A stretch of 64,000 nucleotides of DNA, from NCBI GenBank assembly GCA_001515945.1, contig LOER01000034.1:124001-188000 (forward strand). Reading direction: 5' to 3'. The notes beneath the pieces were generated by a model. It saw nothing but the letters and a program-made list of their open reading frames with translations. It did no database searches and was not told where the DNA came from. Positions 2,410 to 33,673 of the stretch are shown here, in pieces. Within the stretch, counting starts at the first letter, position 1. Each line of letters opens with the position of its first letter. Source of the DNA: Desulfitibacter sp. BRH_c19. GTDB lineage: Bacteria; Bacillota; DSM-16504; Desulfitibacterales; Desulfitibacteraceae. Both the position numbers and the translations under genes were made by a program.

Positions 2410-3285
2410 TTATTGTTTATAAGAAAGACTTTTTCTGTATTGCTTGATAAATTCAACGCCATATGGGTCTATACCATTCAAAAAATCCATAGTCGAAGTC
2501 ATCTGGCTTAAATGTGGGGTTGATGGATTAACCATTGCCACATTTAACCCCCAGGAAGCTCCAGAAACAAAGTACGCTAAGTCAATTAGTCCCGGGTTTG
2601 GCATCATATATCCTGCATTACTTATACCGAGTAGTGCTGGTACTCCCAGCTCTTCATGAAATGCTTTAATTGTTTCTAGAGTAACCTGCATACTATTTGG
2701 GACTACCCCAATAGGTAAACACACAGCGTCTATAGCTAAATCTTCACGAGGTATACCATGTGCTTCTGCGGCATCTACTATACGTTTTGCAACAAACACT
2801 CTATCTTTTACAGATTCAGGTATTCCCTTTTCATAAACTAAAGCCGTTCCAACAGCTGCACCATACTTAGCTATTATTGGCAACATCTTTTTTAGATTAT
2901 CTTTTTCTCCATTTACTATGTTACACATGGCCTTATATGGATAAACTGCTAAGCCTGCTTCTACCACTTTAGTATCCCGGGCGTCAATTGCAATACAGCA
3001 GCCTGTTTTTTCCACAAGTAACTCTATTACTCTTGGCAGCAACTTTAGCTGGTCTAGTTTAGGTTGCATAAGCTGAACATTAACAACATTTATTCCCATT
3101 TCCATGCCATCCTCAGCAAGTTTTAATAAACTGGCCAGACAGCCATCCTGCAGTTCTGCAAGTACTTCAGGTTTTTCTATACAATATCCCATCTGATCAT
3201 TGATACACAAGATAGGTTTTCCTATTCCAAACTCAATTGTTCCTTTTGCATATGAAAGCTTTCCACGAAGAAAATTCTGTACCAT
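2410..3285 (-). CDS. Methyltetrahydrofolate:corrinoid-type methyltransferase (pterin-binding family)
   Basis: 291-residue TIM-barrel protein of the dihydropteroate synthase/MeTr (AcsE, MtgA-like) family, which moves methyl groups between a corrinoid protein and tetrahydrofolate. Visible family features are the early IND segment near 28-30, the IDARDTK strand near 99-105, CNIVNGE near 120-126 (the pterin-pocket Asn), the AIDAVCLPIG strand near 184-193, and LGISNAGYMMP near 218-228. Placed between the ECF S/47-residue genes and EcfT, in the same operon as two UroD-type methyltransferases and a corrinoid protein, it is the obvious last step: methyl-corrinoid to methyl-THF, feeding the Wood-Ljungdahl methyl branch. 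ATG at 3285 follows GGGAGG. The substrate corrinoid partner is inferred. Confidence 0.85.
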   Translation of the reverse strand: MVQNFLRGKLSYAKGTIEFGIGKPILCINDQMGYCIEKPEVLAELQDGCLASLLKLAEDGMEMGINVVNVQLMQPKLDQLKLLPRVIELLVEKTGCCIAIDARDTKVVEAGLAVYPYKAMCNIVNGEKDNLKKMLPIIAKYGAAVGTALVYEKGIPESVKDRVFVAKRIVDAAEAHGIPREDLAIDAVCLPIGVVPNSMQVTLETIKAFHEELGVPALLGISNAGYMMPNPGLIDLAYFVSGASWGLNVAMVNPSTPHLSQMTSTMDFLNGIDPYGVEFIKQYRKSLSYKQ

Positions 3286-3567: not shown

Positions 3568-4197
3568 TTACGCCAACCAGCGACCTGGTTCATTTGGCAC
3601 ATGTCCTCGGAAACGTACAATAAATGGTGACAATACCCATAAAGCGATGAGCCCTAAAATAATTCTGCCAACAAAAGAGCCGCCAAACCAAGAAGGCCAA
3701 ACTGCCATTAACCAAAATTCGGGAGCTGTCTGTCCTAACACGACGTACCAAGCACTCCAAAATGATGATATCAAGCTATTGATTAAAGCTCCAAAAAGAA
3801 TAAACACAACAATACTTTTCATATCTCTTGCTAAAGGACTACATGCAAAGTAACGAAATGCTAAGGCGGGAACAGCAATTTCAAAAACTGTAGCTAATTG
3901 AAATAATAATGTTGTAATTAAGGGCATGCCCCCTATAGAATTACCTATAATCATTCCGATACATGCACCAAGTATCCCCCATACTCCAAACCACAAACCT
4001 GCTACAACATAAAGACTTACAGCAATATTTAAACTAACTATTACTGCTGAAATTCCAAACCCTAACATGGAAATAGTTTGCAATACTGCAATAATACCTG
4101 CCCATATAGCACAAGTTACAATGTGAATTGTTGTAGGGGTTGGTAGTGTTTCCCGAACTCTTTCAATTGACCCAGTATTTGGTGTCATCTGTGCCAT
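3568..4197 (-). CDS. ECF transporter S component (substrate-specific membrane protein)
   Basis: Integral membrane protein, 209 residues from the chosen start, with about six hydrophobic helices. Glycine-rich helix motifs (GLWFGVWGILGACIGMIIGN near 90-110) resemble ECF S components, and the T and both A genes lie downstream in the same operon. I chose ATG at 4197 because GGAGGTG sits ten bases before it; an in-frame ATG at 4215 overlaps that Shine-Dalgarno and is unlikely. The N-terminal 25 residues are soluble and threonine/proline-rich. Substrate unknown; the operon context argues for the compound degraded by the neighbouring enzymes rather than a vitamin. Ordinary S-component families (BioY, ThiT, RibU) are not obvious. 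Confidence 0.75.
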   Translation of the reverse strand: MAQMTPNTGSIERVRETLPTPTTIHIVTCAIWAGIIAVLQTISMLGFGISAVIVSLNIAVSLYVVAGLWFGVWGILGACIGMIIGNSIGGMPLITTLLFQLATVFEIAVPALAFRYFACSPLARDMKSIVVFILFGALINSLISSFWSAWYVVLGQTAPEFWLMAVWPSWFGGSFVGRIILGLIALWVLSPFIVRFRGHVPNEPGRWLA

Positions 4198-4375
4198 TTT
4201 AATTAACACCTCCATATTTTTTTGGTATCAATAAACCTAGAATACTCTGACAATAAAACCCATTTTTCTCCTCATCACTCCCTTTCTATAATGGTTAGAC
4301 TCTTTTACCCCTCCTTCCTGAATAATAATCCTGCTCAATAGCACACTCAGTCTCTAAATAACTGATTAATATACT

Positions 4376-5251
4376 TTACACTTTAAATAGTTTTTGTAGG
4401 TAAAACTTATGTGGTCCAAAGTTCCCCCCAAAATTCATTGCTCCAATTTGTATAACACCTGGTACTCTAACTGCAGCTTCTATCCCCTGTTTAATTGCTA
4501 TAGCCACTAAGTCTTCGCTGACGCCAAAGAATAATATATTTAGAATTGAACCAACACCTTCTGGTACCTTTGTTTCATCAACTCTATTTCTTAATTCAGG
4601 GCAATACTGATGAAGCTTATAAATCTGCTCAAGACCAAATCCCATAGGAGACACTCCATCAATTCCCTCAAATGCATCTTTCGCTGCTTTAATGGCTATT
4701 ACAGCTGAAACCTCATTTTCTGCATAGCAAACGAAATGGCCATCTACCCCGCTGGTTGAAATGGATACCTCTGTTTCATATTTAAAAAATCCTGTAGTCG
4801 TAGGTACAATACATATATCTCTTCCACTTTCATTCCTAAAAGAATTTACTCCTTGCCAATTCTCTTCTAGGAGACTATTAATTCTAAATTTTTCGACATT
4901 CTCTAAGCCCGATAACATACAATCAAATATTGTAATAGTAGGTATCAATGTAGCAAGGTGATATCTTAAAGCTAATTCTTCAAGAAACTGATCTCTCATA
5001 TGAGGGGGCATAGTCATTGCTATAATAACACCAGGTCTATTATCAGGAGTTTCTTGAGGTAAAGCATTTCTCTCAATGCCACCATTAATTTTTGAGCCCA
5101 ACTCACTTGAACCAGCAGCTCCTGTAAACTGTTGAGCAGCATCCATTGCAATATCTGATGAAACAGCTGTAATAACCAAACGTACCACTTCTAACTTCCA
5201 AGACTCTGCATAAGTATCTTCAATATAAACATTATTTAATAGCATAGACAC
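4376..5251 (-). CDS. Ftr-like protein (formylmethanofuran:H4MPT formyltransferase homologue)
   Basis: 291 residues that align along their whole length with archaeal Ftr as I recall it: N-terminal YIEDTYAESWKLEVVRLVIT, the QETPDNRPGVII segment near 66-77, the central FDCML and TSGVDGHF segments, PEGVGSILNI near 227-236, and the C-terminal GIEAAVRVPGVIQIGAMNFGG with a final KLF. Ftr transfers formyl groups to tetrahydromethanopterin in methanogens and in methylotrophic Proteobacteria (FhcD). No other methanofuran/H4MPT gene is in this window, so the substrate here may differ. GTG at 5251 with GGAGG seven bases upstream is preferred over the ATG two codons later. Neighbours are a zinc dehydrogenase and an amidohydrolase; FwdA/FhcA, the usual partner, is also amidohydrolase-fold, but the one here is of the TrzN/SsnA type. 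Confidence 0.8.
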   Translation of the reverse strand: MSMLLNNVYIEDTYAESWKLEVVRLVITAVSSDIAMDAAQQFTGAAGSSELGSKINGGIERNALPQETPDNRPGVIIAMTMPPHMRDQFLEELALRYHLATLIPTITIFDCMLSGLENVEKFRINSLLEENWQGVNSFRNESGRDICIVPTTTGFFKYETEVSISTSGVDGHFVCYAENEVSAVIAIKAAKDAFEGIDGVSPMGFGLEQIYKLHQYCPELRNRVDETKVPEGVGSILNILFFGVSEDLVAIAIKQGIEAAVRVPGVIQIGAMNFGGNFGPHKFYLQKLFKV

Positions 5252-5291: not shown

Positions 5292-6308
5292 TTAGCATTC
5301 ATTTTTAATTACAATTTTCATTCCCTGTTGAGAATGTGCTGCTTCAAATGCCTGTTTAATGTCTGTTAAATAAAATGAATGAGTAATAAGTGGTTTAACA
5401 TCAATCTGATTTAAAAACATAAGTTTTAGAGCATCTCTATAATTTGCTAAAGTTGAATCATAACTGCCTATTAGCCTTAACTCCTTATAGTGGACGAGGT
5501 CTAAATCTAATTGAATTTTATCTTTCATTACTGCAGCGAAATATAACACCTGTCCTTTTCTTGCTGAAATAATTAATGCATCTTCTAAAACCTTTTCATT
5601 ACCTACAGCTGATATCACAATATCAGCACCATAGCCGCCAGTTATATGCTTTACTTCTTCAACCATATCCTGGTTTTCAGCATTTATTATAGAATCAAAA
5701 CCTAGACCTTTTGCTACCTCTAGGCGTTCCTTGGTTATTCCTATTATTGTAGTTTTGGCACCACGACTTCGTAAAATCTGTGCATGTAAAAGTCCAATTG
5801 GCCCATCACCTATTACTACTGCATTACAGCCTAATGGTATGTTTAATTGGCTAGTGCCATATATGCAGCAAGATAGTGGTTCAGTTAAAGCCGCCTCTTC
5901 AAATGAGACACCATTGGGAATCTTCACAAGATTTTGAAAAGGATAAACACTATACTCTTTAAATCCCCCAGAAGTATACCCAGCATTCAAACATGCATTG
6001 AAGTGACCCTTATGACAATTAATACATCTACCGCAAACAAGCCTTCCATCCGGTACAACGTGGTCTCCAATTTTAAAACCCTGTACTTCTGTTCCTAATT
6101 TATCTACAACACCAGATAATTCATGACCCATTTGAAATGGATACTGTATAGTCCACCCTTTTGGGCTATTGCCTTTATAAGCCTCTAGGTCTGTTCCACA
6201 TATACCAGCTGCTTTCACTTTTATCCTTACCTCAAAGGGTCCAGGCTCAGGTTGCTCTATTTCAATAATCTGAAATTTCAGAGGTTTAATTAATACAGCT
6301 GCCTTCAT
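5292..6308 (-). CDS. Zinc-dependent medium-chain alcohol/polyol dehydrogenase
   Basis: 338-residue MDR enzyme of the threonine/sorbitol dehydrogenase type; oxidises a secondary alcohol with NAD(P). Visible are the catalytic-zinc Cys in GICGTD near 36-41 and the GHE pair near 61-63, the structural-zinc lobe CGRCINCHKGHFNAC near 92-106, and the nucleotide-binding VIGDGPIGLLHAQ near 165-177. ATG at 6308 follows AAAGGAGG and overlaps the amidohydrolase stop by 4 bases, so the genes are translationally coupled. A second MDR enzyme lies in the same operon at 12516-13544; both have the LDLDLVHYKEL/ISIDPNLIHYKEL segment and are probably paralogues acting on related polyols. Substrate not determinable from sequence. 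Confidence 0.88.
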   Translation of the reverse strand: MKAAVLIKPLKFQIIEIEQPEPGPFEVRIKVKAAGICGTDLEAYKGNSPKGWTIQYPFQMGHELSGVVDKLGTEVQGFKIGDHVVPDGRLVCGRCINCHKGHFNACLNAGYTSGGFKEYSVYPFQNLVKIPNGVSFEEAALTEPLSCCIYGTSQLNIPLGCNAVVIGDGPIGLLHAQILRSRGAKTTIIGITKERLEVAKGLGFDSIINAENQDMVEEVKHITGGYGADIVISAVGNEKVLEDALIISARKGQVLYFAAVMKDKIQLDLDLVHYKELRLIGSYDSTLANYRDALKLMFLNQIDVKPLITHSFYLTDIKQAFEAAHSQQGMKIVIKNEC

Positions 6309-7726
6309 TCTTTGCCCTCCTTTATAGATGTAAGGTAATATGAGGGTACACTTAACCCCGCTTCTTTAAAACGCCCTAATGCATAGGCTTCAGCTTCATA
6401 AAGTGCCTCTTCTTCATTTACAGTTAGCATGATTTTATTGTCCATGACTATATTTCCGTTTACTATAACCGTATCTACATTTCCAGATTGAGCACAATAT
6501 ACTAGGTTATTAATAATATTGTTTATAGGTCTCATGTTAGCTGATTTAAGATCAACCAGAATTATATCAGCTAGCTTACCGGATTCTAAAGTTCCTAATT
6601 GATCTCCTAACCCAAGGGATTTTGCTCCTCCTATAGTAGCCATTTCTAAAGCTTGATAGCTTGAAACAATCATAGAGTCTAGATTTGCAACCCGCTGAAG
6701 CATAACTGCTATTCTCATGGTTTGAAAAATATCTGTATTATCATTAACTGCACAACTGTCTGTACCTAATGATACATTTATGCCCTCTTTTAGAATTTTT
6801 GCTATAGGAGCTATTCCAGATCCTATTTTCATATTGCATTCAGGATTATGAACTACCGATGTTCCTGTCTCTTTTAGTATCTTTATGTCTTCATCTGTTA
6901 CCCAGATACAATGAGCCGCTAGAACATCATTTCCTAAAACTCCTAGATCCTTTAAGAATTCGGTTGGAGTTTTGTTATAATTCTTTTTAAAGCTATTATA
7001 CTCATATTCTGTTTCCGCTAAATGAATGTGAATTGGGATATGCTTCATGTCAGCTAGTTCACGTACTTTAGTTAACATACCAGGGGTACATGAATTGGGA
7101 CAGGCTAAACCATACCAAAATGAAACCCTATTATCCTTAGAACCCTTACATCGTTCGTTAAGCTCATCAGCTAAATTAAACAATATGTCATTACTTAATA
7201 TGGCCGCTGAAGGTGTCCATTTATGATTATCTGTAATAGTCAGTGTATGTGCCGCCCTAATCCCAATGTCTTCATACACTTTAATAGTATCAACAGGTGT
7301 TGCCCATTCCATATTAACCACGCTCGTAATACCCGATTTTATATTTGTAATGCATCCATGTAAAGTGGCAAAGTTTTGGAGTTCATTTCTGCCATTTAGA
7401 TAGTCCTGTACAGCCACCCTAATTCTCGGAAAACTCACTTGATCAATCCAATCAATTAATGGCAAATCATCTCTAGCACCTTTCAGGAAATCCTGTAAGA
7501 AATGACAATGAGCGTTTATCAGCCCAGGCATTACCGCCTTATTTCTTGCATTAATAATCTTTCTACCATTGTACTTATCTATTAAAGTATCTGTTGTGCC
7601 AACCTCAAGGATTCTGCCTTTATTTACAGCTACTGCACCGTTTTCAATAACTTGATTTGGTCCAGTAACTGGAACGACTAAACCATTCATTATTAACATA
7701 TCTATATTCATTTTAGTTTCACTCAT
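6305..7726 (-). CDS. Metal-dependent amidohydrolase (TrzN/AtzA/SsnA-type deaminase family)
   Basis: Cytosolic amidohydrolase of the cytosine deaminase-like superfamily that hydrolyses C-N (or C-halide) bonds on heterocycles or amidines. Family marks: LINAHCHFLQDFLKG (metal HxH), HIHLAETEYEY, AAHCIWVTDEDI, HNPECNMKIGSG, and SLGTDSCAVNDN with the catalytic Asp, then the C-terminal composite beta domain (LESGKLADIILVDL). I start at ATG 7726 (473 residues), which has GAGGTG seven bases upstream; an in-frame ATG at 7741 overlaps that RBS. The start overlaps the end of the Fe-S gene (ATGAGTGA). In the demethylation/polyol operon it would handle an amine or amidine group of the substrate; inference only. 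Confidence 0.85.
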   Translation of the reverse strand: MSETKMNIDMLIMNGLVVPVTGPNQVIENGAVAVNKGRILEVGTTDTLIDKYNGRKIINARNKAVMPGLINAHCHFLQDFLKGARDDLPLIDWIDQVSFPRIRVAVQDYLNGRNELQNFATLHGCITNIKSGITSVVNMEWATPVDTIKVYEDIGIRAAHTLTITDNHKWTPSAAILSNDILFNLADELNERCKGSKDNRVSFWYGLACPNSCTPGMLTKVRELADMKHIPIHIHLAETEYEYNSFKKNYNKTPTEFLKDLGVLGNDVLAAHCIWVTDEDIKILKETGTSVVHNPECNMKIGSGIAPIAKILKEGINVSLGTDSCAVNDNTDIFQTMRIAVMLQRVANLDSMIVSSYQALEMATIGGAKSLGLGDQLGTLESGKLADIILVDLKSANMRPINNIINNLVYCAQSGNVDTVIVNGNIVMDNKIMLTVNEEEALYEAEAYALGRFKEAGLSVPSYYLTSIKEGKE

Positions 7727-8849
7727 CCGACAACACCTCATTAATTAGTTCTGTAAGAAATTTAACTTTAACATCAAGTTGATTAAAACCTACTGCTCTT
7801 TTAAGGTTTGAATAACAAGCTGGACATGAGGTTACTACTTCTTGAGCCTTTACTTCTTCTACTTCTTTTGCCCTCTCAGAGGCTACCTGAATAGATAATT
7901 CATTCATTCTAGGAATTTCTGCCAATGGAGCTCCACAGCATCTAGATTTTTCATGATGTAGCTTCATTTCTACAAAATTAATATCTGGTATCACTTTTAG
8001 TAAATTTCTAGGTTCTTCGTAAATACCTAGGTGTCTACCAAGTACACAAGGGTCGTGCCAAGTAACAGTTTTATTATGAGAAGACAATTTTCCATTAACC
8101 AAAGGTATCAAAAATTCAGAAATGTCTTTAATATCATAATTGTGGTTTAAACTTAACTCATTAGGATAAAGATGCTTTAAAGCATTTAAACATCCTGGGC
8201 ATGCAGTAACTATTATGTCGGCTTCGTACTTCTCTATCTTACTTAGCGTTTCTTCTGCTGCCATTTTCATATCACTAATATGACCGCTTTCATATAGCGG
8301 ATAGCCACAACAGGCATCTTCATCTAAAACTTGGTAATTAATCTGAAGTTTAGCAAATACTGATTTTGTGGCTCTAATTATTTTTGGAGCGTTATAATTT
8401 GCATTACATCCAGGATAATAAAGAACTTTTATTTTACCTGACATATTCTTTTCAGCATAACTGTGTCTTCTTCTATTACCAAATGGATGACTATCTTTTA
8501 TTACATTGTTTGCCATCTCTCTATGTGCAGGATCTGACAAATCGTTTTCGACTATTTCTTTTCGTATAGCATGGAAAATTTTGTCTAATGGAATATTAAT
8601 TGGACACGAAATTTTACAATGACCGCAAAGTGTACACATAAGCAAATGGTCAACCATTTTTTCAGATATTTTTATTTTTTTCTCGGTTAAAAGCTTTGCT
8701 AGTTTTACTCTTCCACGGGGATATTGGGTTTCCCATCCATCTGTATACTTATAAACTGGACAGACCGAATCAACATCCTTCCAACCCCACACTCTACAAA
8801 ATCCACATCTAGTACACTTATTTATTTCATCAAGATATTTTTCTAGCAT
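7719..8849 (-). CDS. Iron-sulfur oxidoreductase subunit (GlcF/LldE/HdrD-like, two CCG domains)
   Basis: 376-residue electron-transfer partner of the FAD oxidase upstream. Two N-terminal [4Fe-4S] motifs: CTRCGFCRVWGWKDVDSVCP near 12-31 (the fourth Cys is widely spaced) and CTLCGHCKISCP near 72-83. Two cysteine-rich CCG domains follow, with DEDACCGYPLYESG near 178-191 and SRCCGAPLAEIP near 306-317, as in heterodisulfide reductase and glycolate/lactate dehydrogenase subunits. ATG at 8849 follows AAGGAGG, 14 bases after the FAD gene. Together they probably oxidise a 2-hydroxy acid and pass electrons to a membrane or ferredoxin pool. Confidence 0.88.
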   Translation of the reverse strand: MLEKYLDEINKCTRCGFCRVWGWKDVDSVCPVYKYTDGWETQYPRGRVKLAKLLTEKKIKISEKMVDHLLMCTLCGHCKISCPINIPLDKIFHAIRKEIVENDLSDPAHREMANNVIKDSHPFGNRRRHSYAEKNMSGKIKVLYYPGCNANYNAPKIIRATKSVFAKLQINYQVLDEDACCGYPLYESGHISDMKMAAEETLSKIEKYEADIIVTACPGCLNALKHLYPNELSLNHNYDIKDISEFLIPLVNGKLSSHNKTVTWHDPCVLGRHLGIYEEPRNLLKVIPDINFVEMKLHHEKSRCCGAPLAEIPRMNELSIQVASERAKEVEEVKAQEVVTSCPACYSNLKRAVGFNQLDVKVKFLTELINEVLSDE

Positions 8850-8863: not shown

Positions 8864-10207
8864 TTAAAAACCTATTACACCTGGATTCATTATTGCATTG
8901 GGATCTAAAGCCTTCTTAATAGTTTTTGACATGCTCCAATATCCAGTTTCTTTCATTTCTTCTTTCAAAAAGGGTGCCCATTGTCTTCCTTTTGAATATG
9001 GTGCTCCACCCAAAATCAAACTTTTGCTCATCATTTCCTTCATAGCAGAATAGATTTTATTTAGTTCTTCTTTATCAGATGGATTATGAAATAAAAGTGC
9101 TACAACCTCTGCTCCAGTCGGCCCAGGAAACACCTGCTGCACATATTTTGTCACTCCATGCTTATCAATGAGTTCTCGCATTTCATTAATACCGAGTTCA
9201 ATCTTTGAGTAAGGTAAAAAGAAGTTTACAACACCTGCAATACCATCTACAAATTCTAAACCAGTATTATACCAGCGATTCTCCCAAAACTTTAGTGGTT
9301 CATCGGAACCTAGATGTTTTACATCCGGATATTTATTGATGATTTTTCTAACTTCTTCTTTTTTAGCTTCCACTTCTTTTTCGAAGCCTTCAATGTTAAT
9401 ATCAAATACTATTTCATTTGAATTGATAAAAGGTGCCGAAATAAAACATGTAAGATTGTGAATTGCAATTTCTCTAAAAATAGATACAGCATCTTTCAAG
9501 CTCCTTACTGAAAATCTTTCAAGATATATCTCTTCAGGATAAGGATACATTCTCAAGGTTGCCTCTGTAACTATGCCATAAACACCTTCAGCCCCAATAA
9601 AAAGTCCGGTTAAATCTGGACCTAAAGCATATCGAAAAAAGACTTCAGAATGTGGATTAGCTGCTGTTGCAGTATTAACAACGTCTCCCATTGGAAGCAC
9701 AGCTTTAACTCCTAAAACTTGATCTCCCTGGCTTACATATTTTACATTTCCCCAGCCTACTCCTGGTCGCGAGAGATGGGCACCAACCGTTCCAGCCAAT
9801 GCGCCTGAAGGAGCAATGCCAATTTTCCAGCCTTTTTTTTCTAAGGCAGCCATTAACTTGCCAAAGGTGATTCCAGCCTCAACCTTGACTATGCTGTTAT
9901 CCTCATCTATATTAAGTATTCGATCCATACGAAGAGTTTCTATGACTATTCCACCTTCTACTGCCAGACAACCACCCTCTTGAGCCGAACCTCCGCCCCT
10001 AGGAGAAATAGGGATTTTATATTCATTTGCAAGCTTAACGATATTTGATATTTCTTCAGTAGTACCGGGTCTTACAACTGCTAGAGGTACAACTGAAGGT
10101 GAAACAGAAAAATCATTTGTATAAGTATGAAGAATGAATTCTTCAGTTGTTACATTATTATCTCCAACAATTGCTTTCAGTTTATCTAGAAGCATATTAA
10201 TATCCAC
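8864..10207 (-). CDS. FAD-linked 2-hydroxyacid oxidase/dehydrogenase (GlcD/LldD2-like)
   Basis: 447-residue flavoprotein with an N-terminal FAD_binding_4 (PCMH-type) domain: VRPGTTEEISNIVKLANEYK near 45-64, ISPRGGGSAQEGG near 67-79, and PSGALAGTVGAHLSRPGVG near 133-151. It ends in the FAD-oxidase C-terminal signature LDPNAIMNPGVIGF. Homologues oxidise glycolate, lactate or other 2-hydroxy acids. Starts at GTG 10207 after AGGGAGAG. Paired with the Fe-S subunit downstream; a third (GlcE-like) subunit is absent. In this operon it could consume a glycolate-type product of the aldolase step (inference). Confidence 0.88.
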   Translation of the reverse strand: MDINMLLDKLKAIVGDNNVTTEEFILHTYTNDFSVSPSVVPLAVVRPGTTEEISNIVKLANEYKIPISPRGGGSAQEGGCLAVEGGIVIETLRMDRILNIDEDNSIVKVEAGITFGKLMAALEKKGWKIGIAPSGALAGTVGAHLSRPGVGWGNVKYVSQGDQVLGVKAVLPMGDVVNTATAANPHSEVFFRYALGPDLTGLFIGAEGVYGIVTEATLRMYPYPEEIYLERFSVRSLKDAVSIFREIAIHNLTCFISAPFINSNEIVFDINIEGFEKEVEAKKEEVRKIINKYPDVKHLGSDEPLKFWENRWYNTGLEFVDGIAGVVNFFLPYSKIELGINEMRELIDKHGVTKYVQQVFPGPTGAEVVALLFHNPSDKEELNKIYSAMKEMMSKSLILGGAPYSKGRQWAPFLKEEMKETGYWSMSKTIKKALDPNAIMNPGVIGF

Positions 10208-10241: not shown

Positions 10242-10991
10242 TTATGCAGTGAACATTATTTTACGCATATTGCTTACAAGTTCTCCTGGATTATCTGACT
10301 GCCACACTCTTCGGCCTATTGCTACCCCTGAAGCTCCAGCCTGCATAAGTTCCTTGACCATATTTATAGTTCCATCAGCGCCATTTTGGTTAGCTCCTCC
10401 GGCCACAACGATTGGTAAGCCTACTGAGTCAACTATTTGCCTAAAAGCTTCTGGATCGCCACAATAGTTTGTCTTTATTATATCTGCGCCAAGTTCCATT
10501 CCCAATCTTGATACATGGGCTATTGCTTCTGCATCAAAAAACTTATCACTTGAAGGCATCATTTCAGCTAATACTGGCATCTGATATTCATAACTCTTTT
10601 CAATCAATTCGCTCATCCATCTCATAATACTGCATTCGCCACTTCTTCCAAAGAAAATAGAAACTGCAACAGCATCTGCATCTAATCGAAGAGCTGTTTT
10701 AAGTGTGGCAGCTGGGGTTTCTTGAAACGCTTCCTCACTAGGTCCTGCTACGATACTAACCCTTAAAACAATACCAACTTCTGGCTTTACTATATGTCCA
10801 ACTTGGTTTAGGAAACCTGGAGTAACGAGCAAAGCATTTGCCCCTCCATCTAGAACCTGCCCCACAATTTCCTTCGGTTTATTAATTCCTTTAATTGGAC
10901 CCAACCAAGGAGCATGATCTAGAGGAACCATTAGACAACGTTTTTCAGGACCTCTAAATAATCTTTCCATTCTTCGCTTCTTCCCACTCAT
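10242..10991 (-). CDS. Class I aldolase of the DhnA/DeoC-FbaB family
   Basis: 249-residue Schiff-base TIM-barrel aldolase related to archaeal-type fructose-bisphosphate aldolase, LsrF and ADH synthase. Visible are VPLDHAPWLGPIKGI near the N-terminus, the TPGF segment, the catalytic-lysine strand GADIIKTNYCGDPEAF, and the phosphate-binding end PIVVAGGAN and GASGVAIGRRVWQS. ATG at 10991 with AAGGGAG eight bases upstream is preferred over a GTG at 11000. Directly downstream of a sugar kinase and a polyol dehydrogenase, it is the natural C-C cleavage step for a phosphorylated ketose-like intermediate; the exact substrate is open. Confidence 0.82.
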   Translation of the reverse strand: MSGKKRRMERLFRGPEKRCLMVPLDHAPWLGPIKGINKPKEIVGQVLDGGANALLVTPGFLNQVGHIVKPEVGIVLRVSIVAGPSEEAFQETPAATLKTALRLDADAVAVSIFFGRSGECSIMRWMSELIEKSYEYQMPVLAEMMPSSDKFFDAEAIAHVSRLGMELGADIIKTNYCGDPEAFRQIVDSVGLPIVVAGGANQNGADGTINMVKELMQAGASGVAIGRRVWQSDNPGELVSNMRKIMFTA

Positions 10992-11046
10992 GTGAAGCAC
11001 TCCCTTCTTTTTTGAAAACTCATTAATATATTTATTTCTAAAAAAT

Positions 11047-12519
11047 TTAGTTTAAACTAGATGCAAATTTGGAAAACTTGAGATAATTACTATAGACCTT
11101 TTCATAAGCTAATTTATTTTGTTTACTATGATTTACTATTTCTGGTTTATTAAAAGTAGACATCAGGTTGTTCTCAAAATTACCTAATCCTAGATTTTCT
11201 TTGGATAAAGCAAACAATACTCTTGTAACTGTTTCCTGCCCAGCGTACACAAATACGTCCTTTTGGCATACATCAGCAATAATCTGCAACAAACCAGGAG
11301 TTCTAATGCCACCAGCTGCTAGTGCTAGTTCTTTTACAATAACACCAGATTCTTCGTAAAGATCCAGCAAGTGTTTTAGACTATAAGCTATCCCCTCTAA
11401 GACTGCCCTAGCTAAATGTCTTTTGTCATGGGACAACTTTAAACCATAAAACCCTCCTCGTATATCATCACTCCAATAGGGACTTCTTTCTCCTGTTAGA
11501 TATGGGATAAAACATACACCATCTGATCCTGGTTCAATTTCCAAAGCTTCATGAATCCACTCATTAAATTCTATTTTATTTTCTAGACCTGACAATATAT
11601 TTTCATAAAACCACATTATTGCTGCGCCAGTAGTTGAGGATACTCCACCAAACAAATGATAATTTTCCATATTAAGTTTGTATAAAGCGTCATTAGGAAC
11701 ACTTATAATCTTACTTGATTCAATAGTAGTAAATATCATTGAAGAACTGCCTAGAGAACATACAACTCTACCTTGCTTTGGTGGTGCACCGCCAATTAAA
11801 GCCGCCATATCACCCATACCTATTACAACCTTTATACTTTCACTAAACCCTAGCTCATCCGCTATATGCTTATGTATTGTTCCGCCATCATGGCTTGCTG
11901 GTTGTATTGTTGGCATTGCTTTAGGTTTAAGCCCAACTGCAGCTATCCTATCAATAGCCCATGTATTCTTCTCCCAATCATATAGTCCTGAACCATAAGC
12001 TTCAGTTCTATCTGTATAATATTGTCCAGTCATCTTCCAGCGTAAAAAGTCCTTAGGCCAAATTATTTTACTAATTCTTTCAGTAATATCGTTTCTGTTC
12101 TTATATATCCATAAAAGTTTCGATATTGTATAGGTGCTATTTAACTGATATAACGGAATTTGAAACATACTCTGAAGCTCTTCTGTTTCTTTTATAGCCC
12201 TTCTATCAAGCCATAGTATGGATGGGCATATAACATTGTCTTTTCTGTCCAGGAGAACGGCAGAATGCATTTGCCCAGTAAAAGCTATTGATTGTATCTG
12301 ATCTAAACTTATTCCTGATTTTCTTAAAGACGTCATTGCCTTTTTAAAAGCTTCCCACCATACTTCTGGATCTATTTCAGCCCAACCAGTCTTACAAGTT
12401 TCATAGGAATATTTCTCATTTACAATACTTATTATCTGGCCATCTATTGAATATAAGACAGCTTTTAAAGATGAAGTACCGACATCTATTCCTAAAATGC
12501 TGGGGGCTATATTGCTCAC
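11047..12519 (-). CDS. FGGY-family carbohydrate kinase (xylulokinase-like)
   Basis: 490-residue sugar/polyol kinase with the actin-like fold. N-terminal phosphate-1 motif LGIDVGTSSLKAVLYS near 8-23, the substrate-loop TGQMHSAVLLD near 81-91, the second nucleotide motif GMGDMAALIGGAPPKQGRVV near 240-259, and the FGGY-type adenosine motif LALAAGGIRTPGLLQIIADV near 401-420. Starts at GTG 12519, overlapping the preceding dehydrogenase stop by four bases (GTGA). Sequence resembles xylulokinase more than glycerol or gluconate kinase, but FGGY specificity cannot be read by eye. Acts between the dehydrogenase and the aldolase in a likely polyol, ketose, ketose-phosphate, cleavage route. Confidence 0.88.
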   Translation of the reverse strand: MSNIAPSILGIDVGTSSLKAVLYSIDGQIISIVNEKYSYETCKTGWAEIDPEVWWEAFKKAMTSLRKSGISLDQIQSIAFTGQMHSAVLLDRKDNVICPSILWLDRRAIKETEELQSMFQIPLYQLNSTYTISKLLWIYKNRNDITERISKIIWPKDFLRWKMTGQYYTDRTEAYGSGLYDWEKNTWAIDRIAAVGLKPKAMPTIQPASHDGGTIHKHIADELGFSESIKVVIGMGDMAALIGGAPPKQGRVVCSLGSSSMIFTTIESSKIISVPNDALYKLNMENYHLFGGVSSTTGAAIMWFYENILSGLENKIEFNEWIHEALEIEPGSDGVCFIPYLTGERSPYWSDDIRGGFYGLKLSHDKRHLARAVLEGIAYSLKHLLDLYEESGVIVKELALAAGGIRTPGLLQIIADVCQKDVFVYAGQETVTRVLFALSKENLGLGNFENNLMSTFNKPEIVNHSKQNKLAYEKVYSNYLKFSKFASSLN

Positions 12520-13544
12520 CCTTCTTCCCCTCCTACTTCAAACATCACCTTCAGCCCTTGACATTTAGCTACTATATCTAAACCTTCTTGAAGCTTATTT
12601 AAAGGCAAGAGATGAGAGATTAAAGGTTCCACTTTTATAGTTCCGTCTTCAATCATTTTAAGTGCTTTATAAAAATCTGTAGATGTACTATCAGCAGAAC
12701 CCAATATATTTAACTCCTTGTAATGAATTAAATTAGGATCGATACTTATTGGATCTACAGGATAAATCCCTGCAAAAATATTCAAACGTCCTCCAATTGC
12801 TAAAGCTTTAGCAGTTTCGGAAACTAATGGTGATGAAGGTACTGCAACAACAGCTGCATCTGCTCCCTTACCATCCGTTAATTCCTCTATAGCTGCCACC
12901 ATATCGTGCTGGGAACTGTTAACAATAGCATCTGCGCCCAGTTTCTTAGCTAAGTCAAGACGTTCTTGGATTAAATCTACTGCAATAACCCGAGCCCCAT
13001 ATGCTTTAGCTACTTGTGCATGAAGCTGACCGATGGGTCCAACACCCACTACTACTTCTGTTTCTCCAGGTTTTAATCTTAGTACTGTTTGACCTCTAAA
13101 AACTGTAGCCAAAGGTTCAGTAAAAGCAGCAGCTTTTAAACTAACACCAGGCTTAATGGGATGAATGTTTTTTCTTGGAAAAGCAGCATATTCTGCATAA
13201 CCTCCAGGCAGAAATGTAGGGTTAAGGCACTTATTTTCTCTTTCATTCCTACAGTTTTTACAAACACCACATTTGACTATGAAATCACCAACAACAGGAG
13301 TTCCTATCTCTAAGTCCTTTACATCTGAACCAACTTCAGTAACTATACCGGCGATTTCGTGACCGAGAATGCGTGGTAATGGAACATTCTTTTTGCCCAA
13401 GTAAACCCTAAGATCCCAAGGACAAATTCCTGAATAAGCGATTTTTACAAGAACATCTTTAGGGCCTATCTGATATACAGGCTTTTCACGCATTTCAATT
13501 ACTCCTGGTTCAACACACCACATAGAATTCATGATCTTAGCCAT
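12516..13544 (-). CDS. Zinc-dependent medium-chain dehydrogenase (second paralogue)
   Basis: MDR enzyme, 342 residues from ATG 13544. GICPWDLRVY near the catalytic zinc (the usual CGTD is CPWD here), GHE in RILGHEIAG, structural-zinc cysteines CGVCKNCRNERENKC, Rossmann VVGVGPIGQLHAQV. GGAGG lies at the right distance before ATG 13544; an in-frame TTG 15 bases earlier is embedded in the RBS region. Located between the GntR regulator and the FGGY kinase. Likely oxidises a polyol or methylated polyol to a keto compound; the paralogue at 5292-6308 may take the reverse or the epimer step. These roles are inference. Confidence 0.87.
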   Translation of the reverse strand: MAKIMNSMWCVEPGVIEMREKPVYQIGPKDVLVKIAYSGICPWDLRVYLGKKNVPLPRILGHEIAGIVTEVGSDVKDLEIGTPVVGDFIVKCGVCKNCRNERENKCLNPTFLPGGYAEYAAFPRKNIHPIKPGVSLKAAAFTEPLATVFRGQTVLRLKPGETEVVVGVGPIGQLHAQVAKAYGARVIAVDLIQERLDLAKKLGADAIVNSSQHDMVAAIEELTDGKGADAAVVAVPSSPLVSETAKALAIGGRLNIFAGIYPVDPISIDPNLIHYKELNILGSADSTSTDFYKALKMIEDGTIKVEPLISHLLPLNKLQEGLDIVAKCQGLKVMFEVGGEEG

Positions 13545-13578
13545 ATATTGCCTCCTCAATCTTTATTTGTGCGGTAAT

Positions 13579-14337
13579 TTAGTCCATACTTACATACTGG
13601 TTAGTGGTTGACCGTACTGAATACTTAAAACGGTCTGCCCTATTATATACATAGCTATATTCTATTGGACAACCATCTCCATCATAAGAAATTCCTTCAA
13701 CAAGTAAAAGTGGATTGCCCTGAAGTATTTTCAAAACCCTTGCTTGATGGCTATTTGCTGCAATAGCTTGAACTGTATCTTCTGTCTCCTTAATAATAAT
13801 TCCCTTTTGAAACAATAGTGCCCATAAAGATACTTCCTTTTCTAGCTCCCCTGGATGCAAATATATTTCCTGAGGAAGGTTTAAATGCGAAGTACTATAA
13901 GCTACGGGTTCATCGTCAATAGTCCTTAAACGTTCAATAACCCATATTTTCTTGCCTTCTTCAATGCCTAAAGCTTCAGCGATTTGTCCTACAGCAGACT
14001 CAAACCTTAGTTCCAAAAGTTTTGACCCGGGCTTACGTCCACTTAAACTAACTTCCTCGGAAAAGCTTCTACGGCTGTTAGTGCCACGGCTAAGCTTAGG
14101 TTGTGAAACAAAAGTACCTACACCCTGACGGCGTTGTAAGTAACCTTCCTGTACCATTTCTTGAATAGCAGCCCGCACAGTTATTCTACTAACCTGAAAT
14201 TTTTCGCATAGTTCCTTCTCAGTCATGATAATCTCGCCAGGCTTAAGTTCTCCATGATTTATTTGTTTTAAAAGTATCTGTTTTACTTGATAATACAGTG
14301 GTTCTGGAGCATTTCGATCGATTTTAAACACACTCAT
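13579..14337 (-). CDS. GntR-family regulator, HutC/UTRA type
   Basis: 252-residue repressor. N-terminal winged helix-turn-helix at about 5-75 (LYYQVKQILLKQINHGELKP, VSRITVRAAIQEMVQEGYL, RRQGVGTFV) and a C-terminal UTRA ligand domain from about 95 (WVIERLRTIDDEPVAYSTSHL through PLLLVEGISYDGDGCPIEYS). Lies inside the cluster between the UroD gene and the MDR gene. Two identical 10-bp palindromes (TGTTATAACA) lie upstream of the two UroD genes at 15459-15468 and 17321-17330, at almost the same distance from each start, and are the best candidate operators. The ligand is probably the pathway substrate or a phosphorylated intermediate. Confidence 0.88.
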   Translation of the reverse strand: MSVFKIDRNAPEPLYYQVKQILLKQINHGELKPGEIIMTEKELCEKFQVSRITVRAAIQEMVQEGYLQRRQGVGTFVSQPKLSRGTNSRRSFSEEVSLSGRKPGSKLLELRFESAVGQIAEALGIEEGKKIWVIERLRTIDDEPVAYSTSHLNLPQEIYLHPGELEKEVSLWALLFQKGIIIKETEDTVQAIAANSHQARVLKILQGNPLLLVEGISYDGDGCPIEYSYVYNRADRFKYSVRSTTNQYVSMD

Positions 14338-14367: not shown

Positions 14368-14419
14368 TTTATCCAAAATACTATATGGGTTAAGACCCTC
14401 ATTTCTATAAGTGGGCACT
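14368..14419. repeat. Dispersed repeat, short copy
   Basis: The sequence TTTATCCAAAATA followed by CTATATGGGTTAAGACCC and, near its end, TATAAGTGGGCA is closely repeated at 41672-41770, where about 45 extra bases separate the two conserved parts. This copy covers the last codons and the stop of the UroD-type gene ending at 14405. Confidence 0.6.
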
Positions 14420-15403
14420 ATACTTTTCCATATTCCAATTCTTTTTGGCTTCACCCATTGCAATAATATTTTCGGTATTTAAATAATTTGCTAGAGAGTT
14501 GCTGCTAGAGAGAATATAATTGCCTCCTTTGCCTATCACAGTCATTAATGATCTAACATCTTTTTTAACCCTATCTTTATTTCCCGTGCATAAGAGGTTT
14601 AAATCTACATTACCCACAAGCGTTATTTTTTGCCCTAAAGTTTTTTTCAAAGCGTAAATATCCATTACATCAGGTTGAATAGGATGAATCGCATTCATTC
14701 CTAAACCCAACAAGTCATCAATGACTGGCAAAATATTGCCGTCACTATGATAGATCCAAGGTTTTTCGATTTTATCAGTAATTCTCTTAAAATATGGCAT
14801 GATTAACTCTCTAAACTGCTTGGGTGAAATAAAGGTACCACTATTATAGGCTATGTCTTCTCCAACCCATATGAAATCTATTTCTGGTAGTGAACTATAG
14901 ATACTTGTAATCTTCATATAGTATTGTGTATATCTTTCCAACATGTCCTTGATAAGATCTAAGTCATCGTACAGCTTATAGCAAAAGTTTTCGAAGCCAA
15001 GATCAATCATTACAGGATCAAGGCATAATAAGTGAGCAACAAATAGTGCCAGTCCAGAATCTCCTATTGCCTCCTTTGCTTCCTTTACCTGCCTGATTAT
15101 GGCTTCTTCATCTATTTCATTAGGCATATTAAAGAACTTATCTAAGTCCCCCCTTTCTTTTATTAGTGGCTGAAAACCTAGAACTCCATTCTTTTCTAAT
15201 AATTTATTTCCAAACCTATCCCAGTGAGCCATACCTACAGCATCCTGACCTACAAATTTTGCATACTCAACTCTTTCTGTCCAGCCCACATTTTTTACGT
15301 TAAACGTTTTTGCAATAAGTTCATCCCTGGTTTCTATCTCAATCCAAGGTATGGGGCCTTCTTTTCCAAGAAGGGCATTAAGAACTATATCTCTTGATTT
15401 CAC
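14405..15403 (-). CDS. UroD-family corrinoid methyltransferase (first copy)
   Basis: 332-residue uroporphyrinogen-decarboxylase-fold protein, the family of MtaA/MtbA and of many acetogen O-demethylase subunits. GTG at 15403 has AGGGGTG six bases upstream, and the resulting start KSRDIVLNALLGKE aligns with the paralogue's KPRERIMATLMGEE; the in-frame ATG at 15445 has no Shine-Dalgarno. The metal-site region reads WIYHSDGN instead of the HxC of MtaA/MtbA, so the zinc-thiolate for coenzyme M is absent. That argues for an activity other than thiol methylation, such as binding a methylated substrate and methylating the corrinoid. Downstream of the corrinoid protein gene; its 3' end is overlapped by a dispersed repeat. 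Confidence 0.83.
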   Translation of the reverse strand: MKSRDIVLNALLGKEGPIPWIEIETRDELIAKTFNVKNVGWTERVEYAKFVGQDAVGMAHWDRFGNKLLEKNGVLGFQPLIKERGDLDKFFNMPNEIDEEAIIRQVKEAKEAIGDSGLALFVAHLLCLDPVMIDLGFENFCYKLYDDLDLIKDMLERYTQYYMKITSIYSSLPEIDFIWVGEDIAYNSGTFISPKQFRELIMPYFKRITDKIEKPWIYHSDGNILPVIDDLLGLGMNAIHPIQPDVMDIYALKKTLGQKITLVGNVDLNLLCTGNKDRVKKDVRSLMTVIGKGGNYILSSSNSLANYLNTENIIAMGEAKKNWNMEKYSAHL

Positions 15404-15458
15404 TATTGACACCCCTGTGTAATAAGTTATCGGTTTTACTAACATTATTACATTATAT

Positions 15459-15496: not shown

Positions 15497-16123
15497 CTAT
15501 AACCACTGCTTGAGTTGCCTGGCAGCTAAAGCAGCATGCCGAGAGTATGCGTCAGCTCCGATTTGAGCAGCGAAGCCTTCTGAAACAGCTGCTCCACCAA
15601 TTATAACCTTAAGATCTTCCCTTAGACCAGCACTCTTTAGTGCATCAATTACAACTTGCATTTCTACCATTGTAGTAGTAATTAATGATGACATTCCTAA
15701 AAAATTTGGTTTATACTCTCTTATAGCTTTCACAAAATCTTCCTCGTGAACATCCACGCCCAAATCTATAACTCTAAAACCACTAACATCCAAAATCATT
15801 TCTACCATATTCTTGCCAATATCATGCAAATCCCCTTTTACCGTTCCTAATACAATAGTAGCTTTTTTGGTTGATGGACCTTCTGTTAATCCTTTTGATG
15901 CAAGCTTCATAGCATCTTTCACGACATAGGAAGCCAGCAACATATCTGGTACAAAACATTCTCCCGATTCGAACTTATCTCCTACGATATTTATTCCTGG
16001 TATTAGTCCTTGATTAATTATGTCCAATCCTGAAGCTCCACCATTGAGAGATTTTTGAACTAATTCAAGGGTCTTACCCTTTTTCCCATTTGCAACAGAA
16101 TTTTGTATTTCTTCATAATACAT
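15497..16123 (-). CDS. Corrinoid (methylcobamide-binding) protein, MtaC/MtbC/MtmC-like
   Basis: 208-residue methyl carrier. An N-terminal helical cap (about 1-85) with GLDIINQGLIPGINIVGDKF precedes a B12-binding Rossmann domain with the base-off signature DLHDIGK at 98-104 (His100 is the cobalt ligand), then MSSLITTTM and a glycine-rich IIGGAAVSEGFA. It accepts a methyl group from a substrate-specific methyltransferase and hands it to an acceptor methyltransferase. It lies between the two UroD genes, so one is likely the donor enzyme. ATG at 16123 follows AGAGGGGAAG. No reductive activator (RamA/RACo type) is visible in the window, so reactivation must be encoded elsewhere. Confidence 0.92.
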   Translation of the reverse strand: MYYEEIQNSVANGKKGKTLELVQKSLNGGASGLDIINQGLIPGINIVGDKFESGECFVPDMLLASYVVKDAMKLASKGLTEGPSTKKATIVLGTVKGDLHDIGKNMVEMILDVSGFRVIDLGVDVHEEDFVKAIREYKPNFLGMSSLITTTMVEMQVVIDALKSAGLREDLKVIIGGAAVSEGFAAQIGADAYSRHAALAARQLKQWL

Positions 16124-24453: not shown

Positions 24454-26352
24454 TTATGTTGGCAAATCCCCTATCATATCTTCCAAATCTAGTTCTTCTA
24501 ATTTATCTACTGTTGGGATACCGTTAATATCCCATCCTCTAACACAATAATACTCGTCAAGCATTTCCTGAAGCTTTATTGTTAAGTCCTTCTTCATTAC
24601 TTCTTTTCTTTCTAAAGTAATGCCATCTTCAGAAACCATCTTATGAACTGAAATTCCTTCTTTTAAAAATCTTTTTGGAAGCTGATCTGCTTTTCGATCT
24701 AAACCTAAACGAACATTATACATTCTTTCCAAATTAACTACGCGCTCTCCAGCTTTCATTAGCTCATCTGGAGTATATTTCTGCCCTAAAGCTGAAAGCC
24801 CTTCACTAATGTCTTCTGGATACAAACAGTAGTTTTCTGTAGTAGAGAATTTACAGATTCCTACACTGTCACTAATTGCATTAAAGGCTTCAGTAAACTT
24901 TAACATCCTTCCCTTATGCTTTTCCATACCTATATCCATTATTTCAGGAAATATATCACTAAAGTATTTTTTTGCTACCTCAACATGCCCAGCAAGATCA
25001 ATGGTGGGGAGAGCATATAGATGATCGGCTCCTCTATTTGCAACTGCATGAGCTAAACCAAAACCTTTAACAATTCTAGGTTCTTGCCTTGGCATCTCCA
25101 TTCCCTTTACATGCATTGCCAAGTCCTCTGCACCACCGCCTATTTCCTCTGATGCTCTTTTTACACCTTCTGCGAGGAGATTTCCAATACCTCTTCTGTA
25201 CGAAATCATTCTTATAAGTTCCATGATTTCTTTTTCATTGCCCCACTCTAGTGTTAGGCTTTCATTCGTTAACAGGCCCCTTTCTCTACATTCCATTGCA
25301 AAAGCTATTACTACTCCAGTAGAGATAGTATCTATCCCCATCTCATTGCATAATAAATTCCCATAAATTACTGATTCTATGTTTCTATTGCCTAGCAGGG
25401 GACCTAAAGCATTAATTGTCTCATATTCTGGTCCTTCAGTTTCACAAGCAAAGTCCCCATGACTCACTCTAGAGTATCTTGAGCATCTAATAGGACAAGC
25501 AAAACAAGCCATATTTTTTTGGACATATTCTTTTAAGGCTTTTGCATTTACGCCCAAGTTCCCTTCAAATTGAGCCTGTTGATGATTTCTTGTTGGCTGA
25601 TCACCCACTACATTCTTGGGGTCCATTAATAGTGCTGTTCCCCATTCCCTAAGCCCTGCCGATCCAGGATGGTCTTTTACTTGTTTCATACACTTAAGTG
25701 CAACCTTTTTGAATTCAGGGGGTATCGAAACCTTTTGTTTACCCTTTACAACAACAGCCTTGAGATTTTTTGAACCCATTACAGCACCTAAACCGCATCG
25801 TGCTGCCGCTCTCCCATAGTCATTTATTACAGAAGAAATTTTTACTAGATTCTCTCCTGCTGGACCAATACAGGCTACCTTGGAACCTTCAAATCTCTCT
25901 CTAAGTGCCTTTTCAACCACAGATGTTGTCATACCCCAATATCTATCGCCATTAATAAATTCTATTTTATCATCTTCTATCCATACAACTGTGGGGTTCT
26001 CTGCCTTACCTGTAAATACAACAGCATCATACCCAGCTTTCCGCATTTCTGGTCCAAAATGCCCAGAAGAATTGGCATATCCATAAATTCCGGTCAGGGG
26101 GGACTTTGCAGTCACAGTATACCTGGCTGAACTTGGCCACGGAGTACCAGTTAAAGGACCAGGAGAAAAGATCAAAAAGTTTTCTGGACTTAATGGTTCT
26201 ATTTTTGGTCCCACATTATCATATAATATTTTAGCAGCATAACCCCGACTACCAATAAATCGATGTAACTCTTTACTTGGAGTTTCCTCTAATCTATATG
26301 TTCTATCTGTCAGGTTAATATATGCAGTTATCCCAATTATTTCACCCCTCAT
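24454..26352 (-). CDS. Aldehyde:ferredoxin oxidoreductase family (tungsten/molybdo-bispterin enzyme)
   Basis: 632 residues, the usual length. The N-terminal AOR domain shows RFIGSRGYAAKILYDNV and KSPLTGIYGYANSSGHFGPE for pterin binding. The [4Fe-4S] cysteines are in NMACFACPIRCSRYS near 282-296 plus SVGICKFST near 490, giving the family's CX2CX3C...C pattern. Oxidises aldehydes to acids with ferredoxin, or the reverse. Start is ATG 26352 (a TTG just before it is also possible). It is last in an operon with a molybdenum hydroxylase, an association that suggests the two act on successive oxidation states of one substrate (inference). Confidence 0.9.
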   Translation of the reverse strand: MRGEIIGITAYINLTDRTYRLEETPSKELHRFIGSRGYAAKILYDNVGPKIEPLSPENFLIFSPGPLTGTPWPSSARYTVTAKSPLTGIYGYANSSGHFGPEMRKAGYDAVVFTGKAENPTVVWIEDDKIEFINGDRYWGMTTSVVEKALRERFEGSKVACIGPAGENLVKISSVINDYGRAAARCGLGAVMGSKNLKAVVVKGKQKVSIPPEFKKVALKCMKQVKDHPGSAGLREWGTALLMDPKNVVGDQPTRNHQQAQFEGNLGVNAKALKEYVQKNMACFACPIRCSRYSRVSHGDFACETEGPEYETINALGPLLGNRNIESVIYGNLLCNEMGIDTISTGVVIAFAMECRERGLLTNESLTLEWGNEKEIMELIRMISYRRGIGNLLAEGVKRASEEIGGGAEDLAMHVKGMEMPRQEPRIVKGFGLAHAVANRGADHLYALPTIDLAGHVEVAKKYFSDIFPEIMDIGMEKHKGRMLKFTEAFNAISDSVGICKFSTTENYCLYPEDISEGLSALGQKYTPDELMKAGERVVNLERMYNVRLGLDRKADQLPKRFLKEGISVHKMVSEDGITLERKEVMKKDLTIKLQEMLDEYYCVRGWDINGIPTVDKLEELDLEDMIGDLPT

Positions 26353-26380
26353 CAAAACTTTAAACCCTTTGTTATCATAA

Positions 26381-30027: not shown

Positions 30028-30077
30028 ATCTTCACCTCCATGTAGTTAGAAGTATTTAAAGTGCCTATATTTAAAAT

Positions 30078-30104
30078 TAAGTGGGGGTTTGGTTCCCCCA
30101 CTTA
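30078..30104 (-). terminator. Hairpin after MtmB-like gene
   Basis: Arms 30078-30087 (TAAGTGGGGG) and 30095-30104 are exact complements with a 7-base loop, between the MtmB-like stop (30158) and the Mo-hydroxylase start (30027); followed on the minus strand by ATTTTAAAT. Probably terminates or attenuates the methyltransferase transcript. Confidence 0.65.
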
Positions 30105-30157
30105 CAAAGGCTACTCTTAATCATATAGAAATTTAAAGAGGTTAACTAACGTAGATG

Positions 30158-31549: not shown

Positions 31550-31566
31550 TTTGTCACCTCCAAATT

Positions 31567-32235: not shown

Positions 32236-32309
32236 TGTAATTCACTCCTTCTATTATTATTTTCTAATCAATTTATAACCATCAATAACGACCATATCTC
32301 ACCTCCATG

Positions 32310-32323
32310 TGTTAACGTGTTCA
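32310..32323. promoter_or_regulatory. Candidate LacI operator before MtmB-like operon (proximal)
   Basis: TGTTAACGTGTTCA followed by TTTTT, identical over 18 bases to 22631-22648 upstream of the BMP transporter. It lies 75 bases before the TTG start at 32235. Confidence 0.6.
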
Positions 32324-32475: not shown

Positions 32476-32512
32476 AAAAAATTAAAAAATTTCTAAGTAT
32501 TTTACACACTTA

Positions 32513-33671: not shown

Positions 33672-33673
33672 AA

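Follow-up and report, generated by a model that had tools for sequence, protein, structure and literature searches.

Ftr is one of the signature enzymes of archaeal-type one-carbon metabolism. In the canonical reaction, N5 of H4MPT receives a formyl group that methanofuran carries on its amine, and Glu245 (1ftr numbering throughout) is the catalytic residue. Acharya et al. are said to have described this glutamate in 2006 as strictly conserved and as stabilizing the oxyanion. An Ftr encoded in an Fwd/Fhc-type operon has been reported from an actinobacterium (PMC7325909). Among the sampled genomes of the host's phylum, we detected Ftr-type proteins in 17 of 398, mostly in Fhc operons; an earlier reading of the present DNA, made from the sequence only, had named methanogens and methylotrophic Proteobacteria as the known hosts, which is too narrow. 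In genomes G081, G307, G236, and G328, Ftr lies in an Fhc operon and is accompanied by FhcA, Mch, MfnB, and beta-RFAP synthase (the corresponding loci are L030, L031, L035, and L028). Because these four genomes carry them, loci with all Fhc, Mch, methanofuran, and H4MPT markers exist in the phylum. Here, we compare with these systems a gene from the genome of an anaerobic Bacillota-type host (G000; 3.85 Mb, 48 contigs, rated 100% complete), located in a stretch of 64,000 nucleotides that we call the window.

A divergent member of the Ftr family

The sequence-only reading had proposed a full-length Ftr homolog of 291 residues at positions 4376 to 5251, without naming a strand. This open reading frame proved to be real and complete, and it lies on the minus strand; the plus strand across the same interval is full of stops. 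Its start codon is GTG, with GGAGG 7 nt upstream, and its GC content is 36.5%, versus 36.2% for the rest of the window. Pfam and phmmer searches, alignment, tree, and AlphaFold model all place the product in the Ftr family as a divergent member. Both lobes scored above their Pfam gathering scores (FTR, PF01913, E value of 1.5e-23 and 83.8 bits versus 27; FTR_C, PF02741, E value of 1.3e-22 and 80.9 bits versus 25). This strong profile match disposes of the failed match to Ftr that the sequence-only reading had named as a ground for dropping the homolog. With phmmer, residues 4 to 289 matched 1m5s (E value of 5.6e-37), and the search against sequences of solved structures returned three archaeal Ftr proteins and FhcD with no other matches. 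Relative to its counterpart in locus L024 (71% identical), the gene differs at 21, 12.5, and 55% of first, second, and third codon positions, a pattern that indicates purifying selection. Many residues are invariant across all members of the Ftr-like clade. A whole-genome search of G000 detected no Ftr other than this one.

We modeled the protein with AlphaFold from an alignment of 19 sequences that included Ftr/FhcD relatives, obtaining a mean pLDDT of 87; this model replaced a poor one (pLDDT 49) built from the five clade sequences alone. In the model, the protein has the full Ftr fold over its whole length. Superposition on Methanopyrus Ftr (1ftr) gave a Z score of 31.5 and an rmsd of 2.2 over 272 residues, and across the solved archaeal Ftr structures the values were 30 to 31.5 and 2.2 to 2.3 over 272 to 274 residues, with 31 to 34% identity. 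Structural alignment with FhcD (6s6y chain D) gave 24% identity. The C-terminal lobe also resembles microcompartment shell proteins (Z score of about 8), which we take to reflect only a common fold. The archaeal enzymes (1ftr/2fhk, 1m5s, and 1m5h) and the window protein have in common their length, the two-lobe fold, an N-terminal D-T-[YF]-A-E motif, and a C-terminal GG motif.

Against this shared framework, the window protein departs from archaeal Ftr at several sites. Its scores with the NCBIfam equivalog models were well under the cutoffs (NF002554, 179.1 bits versus 297; TIGR03119, 146.2 bits versus 292.6). A check of the active site, suggested by the sequence-only reading, revealed that Glu245 is replaced by Asn in all five clade members (Asn238 in the window protein). 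Outside the clade, Glu occupies this position in 19 of 21 homologs examined, including all four solved Ftr/FhcD proteins. The surrounding strand, located ahead of the final long helix, has the sequence V-[YL]-E-I-V in all solved Ftr/FhcD proteins and I-L-N-[IL]-L in the five clade members. The loop at approximately 199 to 210, which carries a conserved P-GG---SGSK motif, is deleted in all five. The clade also replaces 11 of 41 near-invariant Ftr positions (T45, C50, E53, A54, G121, D129, N168, P199, S207, 208, and V247), as scored from 19 comparison rows, one of them in the wrong reading frame (the right frame was used in the tree). Substitutions in the window protein include T45S, C50S, E53N, and N168H. 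Given the low NCBIfam scores, the exchange of Glu245 for Asn, the lost loop, and the replaced positions, we conclude that this protein is not a canonical Ftr. In the remaining 2 of the 21 homologs, the Glu245 position is occupied by Gln. A second Ftr variant of this Gln type, on a long branch, was observed at L038:7225-8169 and L039:18955-19917, in two genomes of one genus that each encode a Glu-type Ftr as well.

In a tree of 26 sequences (three archaeal Ftr, one proteobacterial FhcD, and otherwise proteins of the host's phylum), the five Ftr-like proteins were monophyletic with 100/100 support on a branch of length 1.75, outside the sampled archaeal Ftr and bacterial FhcD rows. The FhcD group had 97/100 support, and the window clade fell outside it. 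Comparison with archaeal Ftr and FhcD, another check suggested earlier, therefore yielded a separate clade. The FhcD proteins (6s6y chain D and those in Fhc operons of the phylum) share fold and family with the window protein; unlike theirs, the window gene is not beside FhcA/B/C and does not group with FhcD. Clade members were detected in 5 of the 398 genomes, from three families; the classes of G133, G000, and G076 were represented in the sample by 10, 4, and 3 genomes. In addition to the window, the loci compared were L024 (MAG CROMO_A_192), L025 (AS08sgBPME_225), L026 (CSSed162cmA_249), and L027 (G133). A contig search for further members gave only three, and a second draw of genomes from the phylum gave the same members. 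A literature search on this Ftr-like subfamily returned nothing. Genome G047, of the host's genus, has neither this Ftr nor any Mch homolog, so the Ftr/Mch trait is patchy within the genus.

The operon and its conserved neighborhood

All genes from a regulator through the Ftr-like gene to the ECF transporter genes lie on the minus strand. The first gene of the packed run encodes a GntR-type regulator (13579 to 14337), recognized from its sequence and 56% identical to its positional equivalent in L025. According to profile searches, it is followed by a Zn-dependent dehydrogenase (12516 to 13559), a xylulokinase-like FGGY kinase (11047 to 12519), a DhnA/LsrF-type class I aldolase (10242 to 11000), a GlcD-like FAD-linked 2-hydroxyacid oxidoreductase (8864 to 10207), and an Fe-S/cysteine-rich (CCG) protein that resembles the GlcF/GlpC electron partners (7719 to 8849). 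Next come an amidohydrolase-superfamily deaminase/hydrolase of the SAH/MTA/5'-deoxyadenosine deaminase subgroup (6305 to 7741), in which the metal and catalytic motifs of the superfamily (NAHCH, HLAET, and GTD) are kept, and another Zn-dependent dehydrogenase (5292 to 6308), whose nearest solved relatives are L-threonine 3-dehydrogenase and L-iditol 2-dehydrogenase. From the regulator to this dehydrogenase, neighboring genes either overlap or are separated by no more than 46 bp; the amidohydrolase and dehydrogenase genes overlap by 4 bp.

The placement of the Ftr-like gene between a dehydrogenase and an S-component gene was as first proposed. The dehydrogenase is upstream, 40 bp away, and the putative ECF S component (3568 to 4215), suggested by its position and hydrophobicity with no Pfam or NCBIfam match, is downstream after a gap of 160 bp. 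The remaining gaps, of 282, 40, and 37 bp, lead to a pterin-binding methyltransferase of the methyl-THF:corrinoid (AcsE/MetH) type (2410 to 3285; PRK07535, 145.6 bits, below the cutoff of 259), a CbiQ-like ECF T component (1449 to 2369), and an ECF ATPase (557 to 1411), the last two assigned by profile search. Save for this methyltransferase, no other gene for methanofuran or H4MPT was present in the window, as the sequence-only reading had stated. Unlike archaeal Ftr, the window protein is thus encoded without partner genes and in a catabolic operon. Upstream of the run are an MtaA-family protein, a corrinoid protein, and a UroD-like methyltransferase; these include an MtaA/UroD-family methyltransferase gene (14405 to 15445, minus strand), 59 to 60% identical to genes of the L026 and L027 loci, and a corrinoid protein gene (15497 to 16123, minus strand) identified from its sequence.

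The order amidohydrolase, Zn-dehydrogenase, Ftr was conserved in all five clade loci, across three families. The FGGY kinase was detected in four of the five, the fifth (L024) being a 4.9-kb contig that is cut short. ECF T and A genes were likewise present in four, and L024 retains a putative S component. Among these five loci, the Fe-S protein was restricted to L024, L025, and the window, and GlcD to L025 and the window. An aldo-keto reductase in L065, upstream of the window, is 54 to 56% identical to genes of L026 and L027. A search of the window, L025, L026, and L027 with Rfam revealed no riboswitch that might hint at the substrate, including no THF riboswitch.

Several further observations concern the surroundings of these genes. 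In L034 (G076), a more distant Ftr that retains Glu adjoins an amidohydrolase and an ABC importer. Just before the window, L065:7494-12648 encodes the lipoyl synthases LipS1 (over the cutoff) and LipS2 (below it) beside GlcD/Fe-S genes, together with a GcvH-like protein and a lipoyl-ligase-like gene. Within the window, positions 24454 to 40776 form a catabolic island for nitrogen heterocycles, identified by profile searches and sequence. It includes an aldehyde oxidoreductase, xanthine-dehydrogenase-like subunits (assigned by sequence alone), a hydantoinase-like gene, an SsnA-like amidohydrolase, an OTCase/YgeW-like gene, and YgeY (464.8 bits, over the cutoff).

One-carbon markers and Mch homologs

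To score pathways as absent, we used one marker for each: FhcA (TIGR03121), MfnB for methanofuran (PF04476), and beta-RFAP synthase for H4MPT (TIGR00144). Across the whole G000 genome, no FhcA/FwdA was detected over the cutoff, and neither MfnB nor beta-RFAP synthase was detected in G000 or the other clade genomes. Among the clade genomes, only G076, which carries genuine Fhc genes as well, has an FhcA over the cutoff. A complete H4MPT/methanofuran pathway elsewhere in G000, which would make the gene an ordinary one, was accordingly rejected on these three markers, though Mch homologs are present. FTHFS was detected in all five clade genomes, as a full-length gene in G000 and as a partial match in the fragmented G121.

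Beyond what the earlier reading described, we found the replacement of the catalytic Glu and two Mch homologs elsewhere in the genome. These two Mch-family genes are adjacent, on another contig (L051:11722-13568; G000:C40, about 41.7 to 43.6 kb). One retains Arg183 and Glu186 (Archaeoglobus fulgidus numbering), the catalytic residues of Mch, and the other has lost both. Their neighbors encode FolB (dihydroneopterin aldolase, 2.4e-30), an Fe-ADH with lactaldehyde reductase as its best match, an amidohydrolase, an aldehyde oxidoreductase-like protein, and an ABC importer. Pairs of an intact and a degenerate Mch were observed again in L053 (G076) and L059 (G236); such a pair possibly makes up a heteromeric enzyme that takes part in breaking down pterins or purines. 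Near the G236 pair, a purine riboswitch (L059:3488-3589, minus strand, 75.5 bits) lies upstream of a gene for a 441-aa protein.

At L052:6384-13683, as in L053, L055, and L058, Mch homologs are next to E1/E2 genes of the 2-oxoacid/acetoin dehydrogenase type; the L052 locus also contains a lipoyl ligase, a RibD_C-type reductase, and an amidohydrolase, and in a related G121 cluster Mch is accompanied by a RibD_C-type reductase and an amidohydrolase. Mch homologs occur in 5 of 5 clade genomes versus 25 of 398 overall (hypergeometric probability of 6.5e-7, with genomes taken as independent), a co-occurrence that rests on three families; Mch also occurs in genomes without a clade Ftr. Neither the FTHFS nor the Mch genes are linked to the Ftr operon.

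Candidate reactions for the Ftr-like protein

Because the catalytic residue and the binding loop are lost and the host is without markers for synthesis of the partner cofactors, the window protein has probably adapted to a new reaction. The absence of these markers, the Glu245-to-Asn exchange, the separate clade, and the conserved catabolic neighborhood argue for the original suggestion of a repurposed formyl- or acyltransferase in a catabolic pathway, and we regard it as quite probable that the protein is repurposed and is not a methanofuran:H4MPT enzyme. What it does instead can be proposed only tentatively: it may be a catabolic transferase that takes formyl or formimino off an N-formyl-type intermediate on a breakdown route and passes it to a carrier, with N5 of THF the likeliest acceptor. 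For this proposal, we infer donor, acceptor, direction, and all chemistry from gene content. The ECF importer would bring in an amino-substituted nitrogen heterocycle whose side chain is a polyol or a sugar (a compound resembling a flavin, a pterin, or a modified nucleoside). The side chain would be broken down by the Zn-dehydrogenases, the pentulose-type kinase, and the LsrF-type aldolase, while the amidohydrolase would deaminate or open the ring, so that an amine with an N-formyl (or N-formimino) group remains. In parallel to the canonical transfer from methanofuran to H4MPT, the Ftr-like enzyme would then capture the one-carbon unit on N5 of tetrahydrofolate, with Asn238 in place of protonated Glu245 stabilizing the oxyanion. 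Like protonated Glu, Asn is able to give a hydrogen bond to the oxyanion. Conversion of N5-formyl-THF to methenyl-THF could fall to an Mch-like cyclohydrolase whose gene lies elsewhere, and 10-formyl-THF would allow FTHFS to recover ATP. The operon content does not single out one formyl-bearing substrate.

As the carrier, THF is likelier than the unusual C1 carrier once considered for this host, since FTHFS is present in every clade genome and the H4MPT marker is absent. By its proposed role, and not by sequence relation, the window protein can be likened to the THF formimino- and formyltransferases: the glycine and glutamate formiminotransferases would offer an analogy, passing a one-carbon unit from a degraded nitrogen compound to THF. 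A partial analogy may also be drawn with the HutF-type deiminase of histidine breakdown, which belongs to the same superfamily as the operon amidohydrolase (weak matches to the HutF models NF006681, 154 bits, and TIGR02022, 112 bits) and by whose example the amidohydrolase would act before formyl removal. However, the best models were SAH/MTA/5'-deoxyadenosine deaminase-like, and formyl is released by hydrolysis in the HutF-type route but would be transferred in the window operon. Since Asn is shorter than Glu, formyl transfer may have been lost altogether, and the changes at conserved positions might reflect loss of all pterin binding.

The chief rival to transfer onto THF is direct action on a pterin-like substrate in place of a C1 carrier, with the Ftr and Mch families recruited as pterin binders; scavenged pterins, folates, or tetrahydromethanopterin might, for example, be relieved of a formyl or other acyl group ahead of the degradation of ring and polyol chain. 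We consider this rather unlikely, though the gene neighborhoods lend it some weight: two Mch genes lie beside FolB, Fe-ADH, an amidohydrolase, and an ABC importer in L051, in the G121 cluster an amidohydrolase and a RibD_C-type reductase accompany Mch, and the Ftr operon itself includes a polyol-type dehydrogenase, a pentulose-type kinase, an aldolase, and a 2-hydroxyacid oxidase. However, the replaced positions and the lost 199-210 loop could equally mean that pterin binding is gone, the methyltransferase is the only pterin-specific enzyme of the operon, and the Rfam search yielded no THF riboswitch. A bolder extension, which we find improbable, is that a modular pathway, made up of the operon and the sister clusters with Mch, lets anaerobic bacteria feed on tetrahydropterin coenzymes (tetrahydromethanopterin, biopterin, and folate-like compounds) scavenged from dead archaea and bacteria. 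The methyltransferase and corrinoid proteins would remove N5-methyl, the Mch-like proteins would open methenyl, and the Ftr-like protein would strip N5-formyl, with the dehydrogenases, kinase, aldolase, and 2-hydroxyacid oxidase consuming the deoxyribitol and hydroxyglutarate tail.

Another candidate is the missing glycine-type formiminotransferase of anaerobic purine breakdown, which would transfer to THF the formimino group carried by an intermediate derived from purine. No glycine formiminotransferase gene was found in the genome of C. acidurici (PMC3519856), so the activity awaits a gene there, and the window has its own purine-type island, with YgeY and the SsnA-like, OTCase/YgeW-like, and xanthine-dehydrogenase-like genes described above. 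Yet the Ftr operon has a regulator of its own at its head, its sugar and polyol genes would be superfluous for purine bases, a clade present in 5 of 398 genomes is too rare to account for a step general to purinolysis, and canonical Ftr moves formyl, not formimino; we judge this assignment unlikely.

That the protein is a catalytically dead remnant, or has become a binding or regulatory protein, appears a minor prospect. The catalytic Glu is lost, and G000 offers a precedent in the Mch homolog that has neither catalytic residue; against this, the strong purifying selection, the conserved place in the operon across three families, and the many clade-wide invariant residues indicate a function under selection. 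That the protein works as a canonical Ftr on methanofuran and H4MPT obtained from neighboring methanogens is scarcely credible despite the overall fold and the 31 to 34% identity to solved archaeal enzymes, given that Glu245 is replaced in all clade members, the loop is lost, the scores are far under the NCBIfam cutoffs, and G000 has no Fhc/Fwd partner over the cutoff.

Returning to the catabolic transferase that we tentatively favor, these data suggest a new job for the Ftr fold, with the catalytic acid replaced and the genes placed in operons of anaerobic bacteria without the tested methanofuran and H4MPT markers. If the protein does load formyl onto N5 of folate, it would open a new way into one-carbon metabolism and could account for missing pieces such as the unassigned formiminotransferase genes of nitrogen-ring fermentation. 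Annotations of "Ftr" or "Mch" in metagenomes should not be taken as evidence of methanogenesis or methylotrophy.

One further gene in the window has a counterpart near a clade locus. The 463-aa protein encoded at 30158 to 31549 adjoins a corrinoid protein, has no NCBIfam match, and is 60% identical to the product of a gene near the L026 Ftr; it is possibly a methyltransferase of an undescribed kind.
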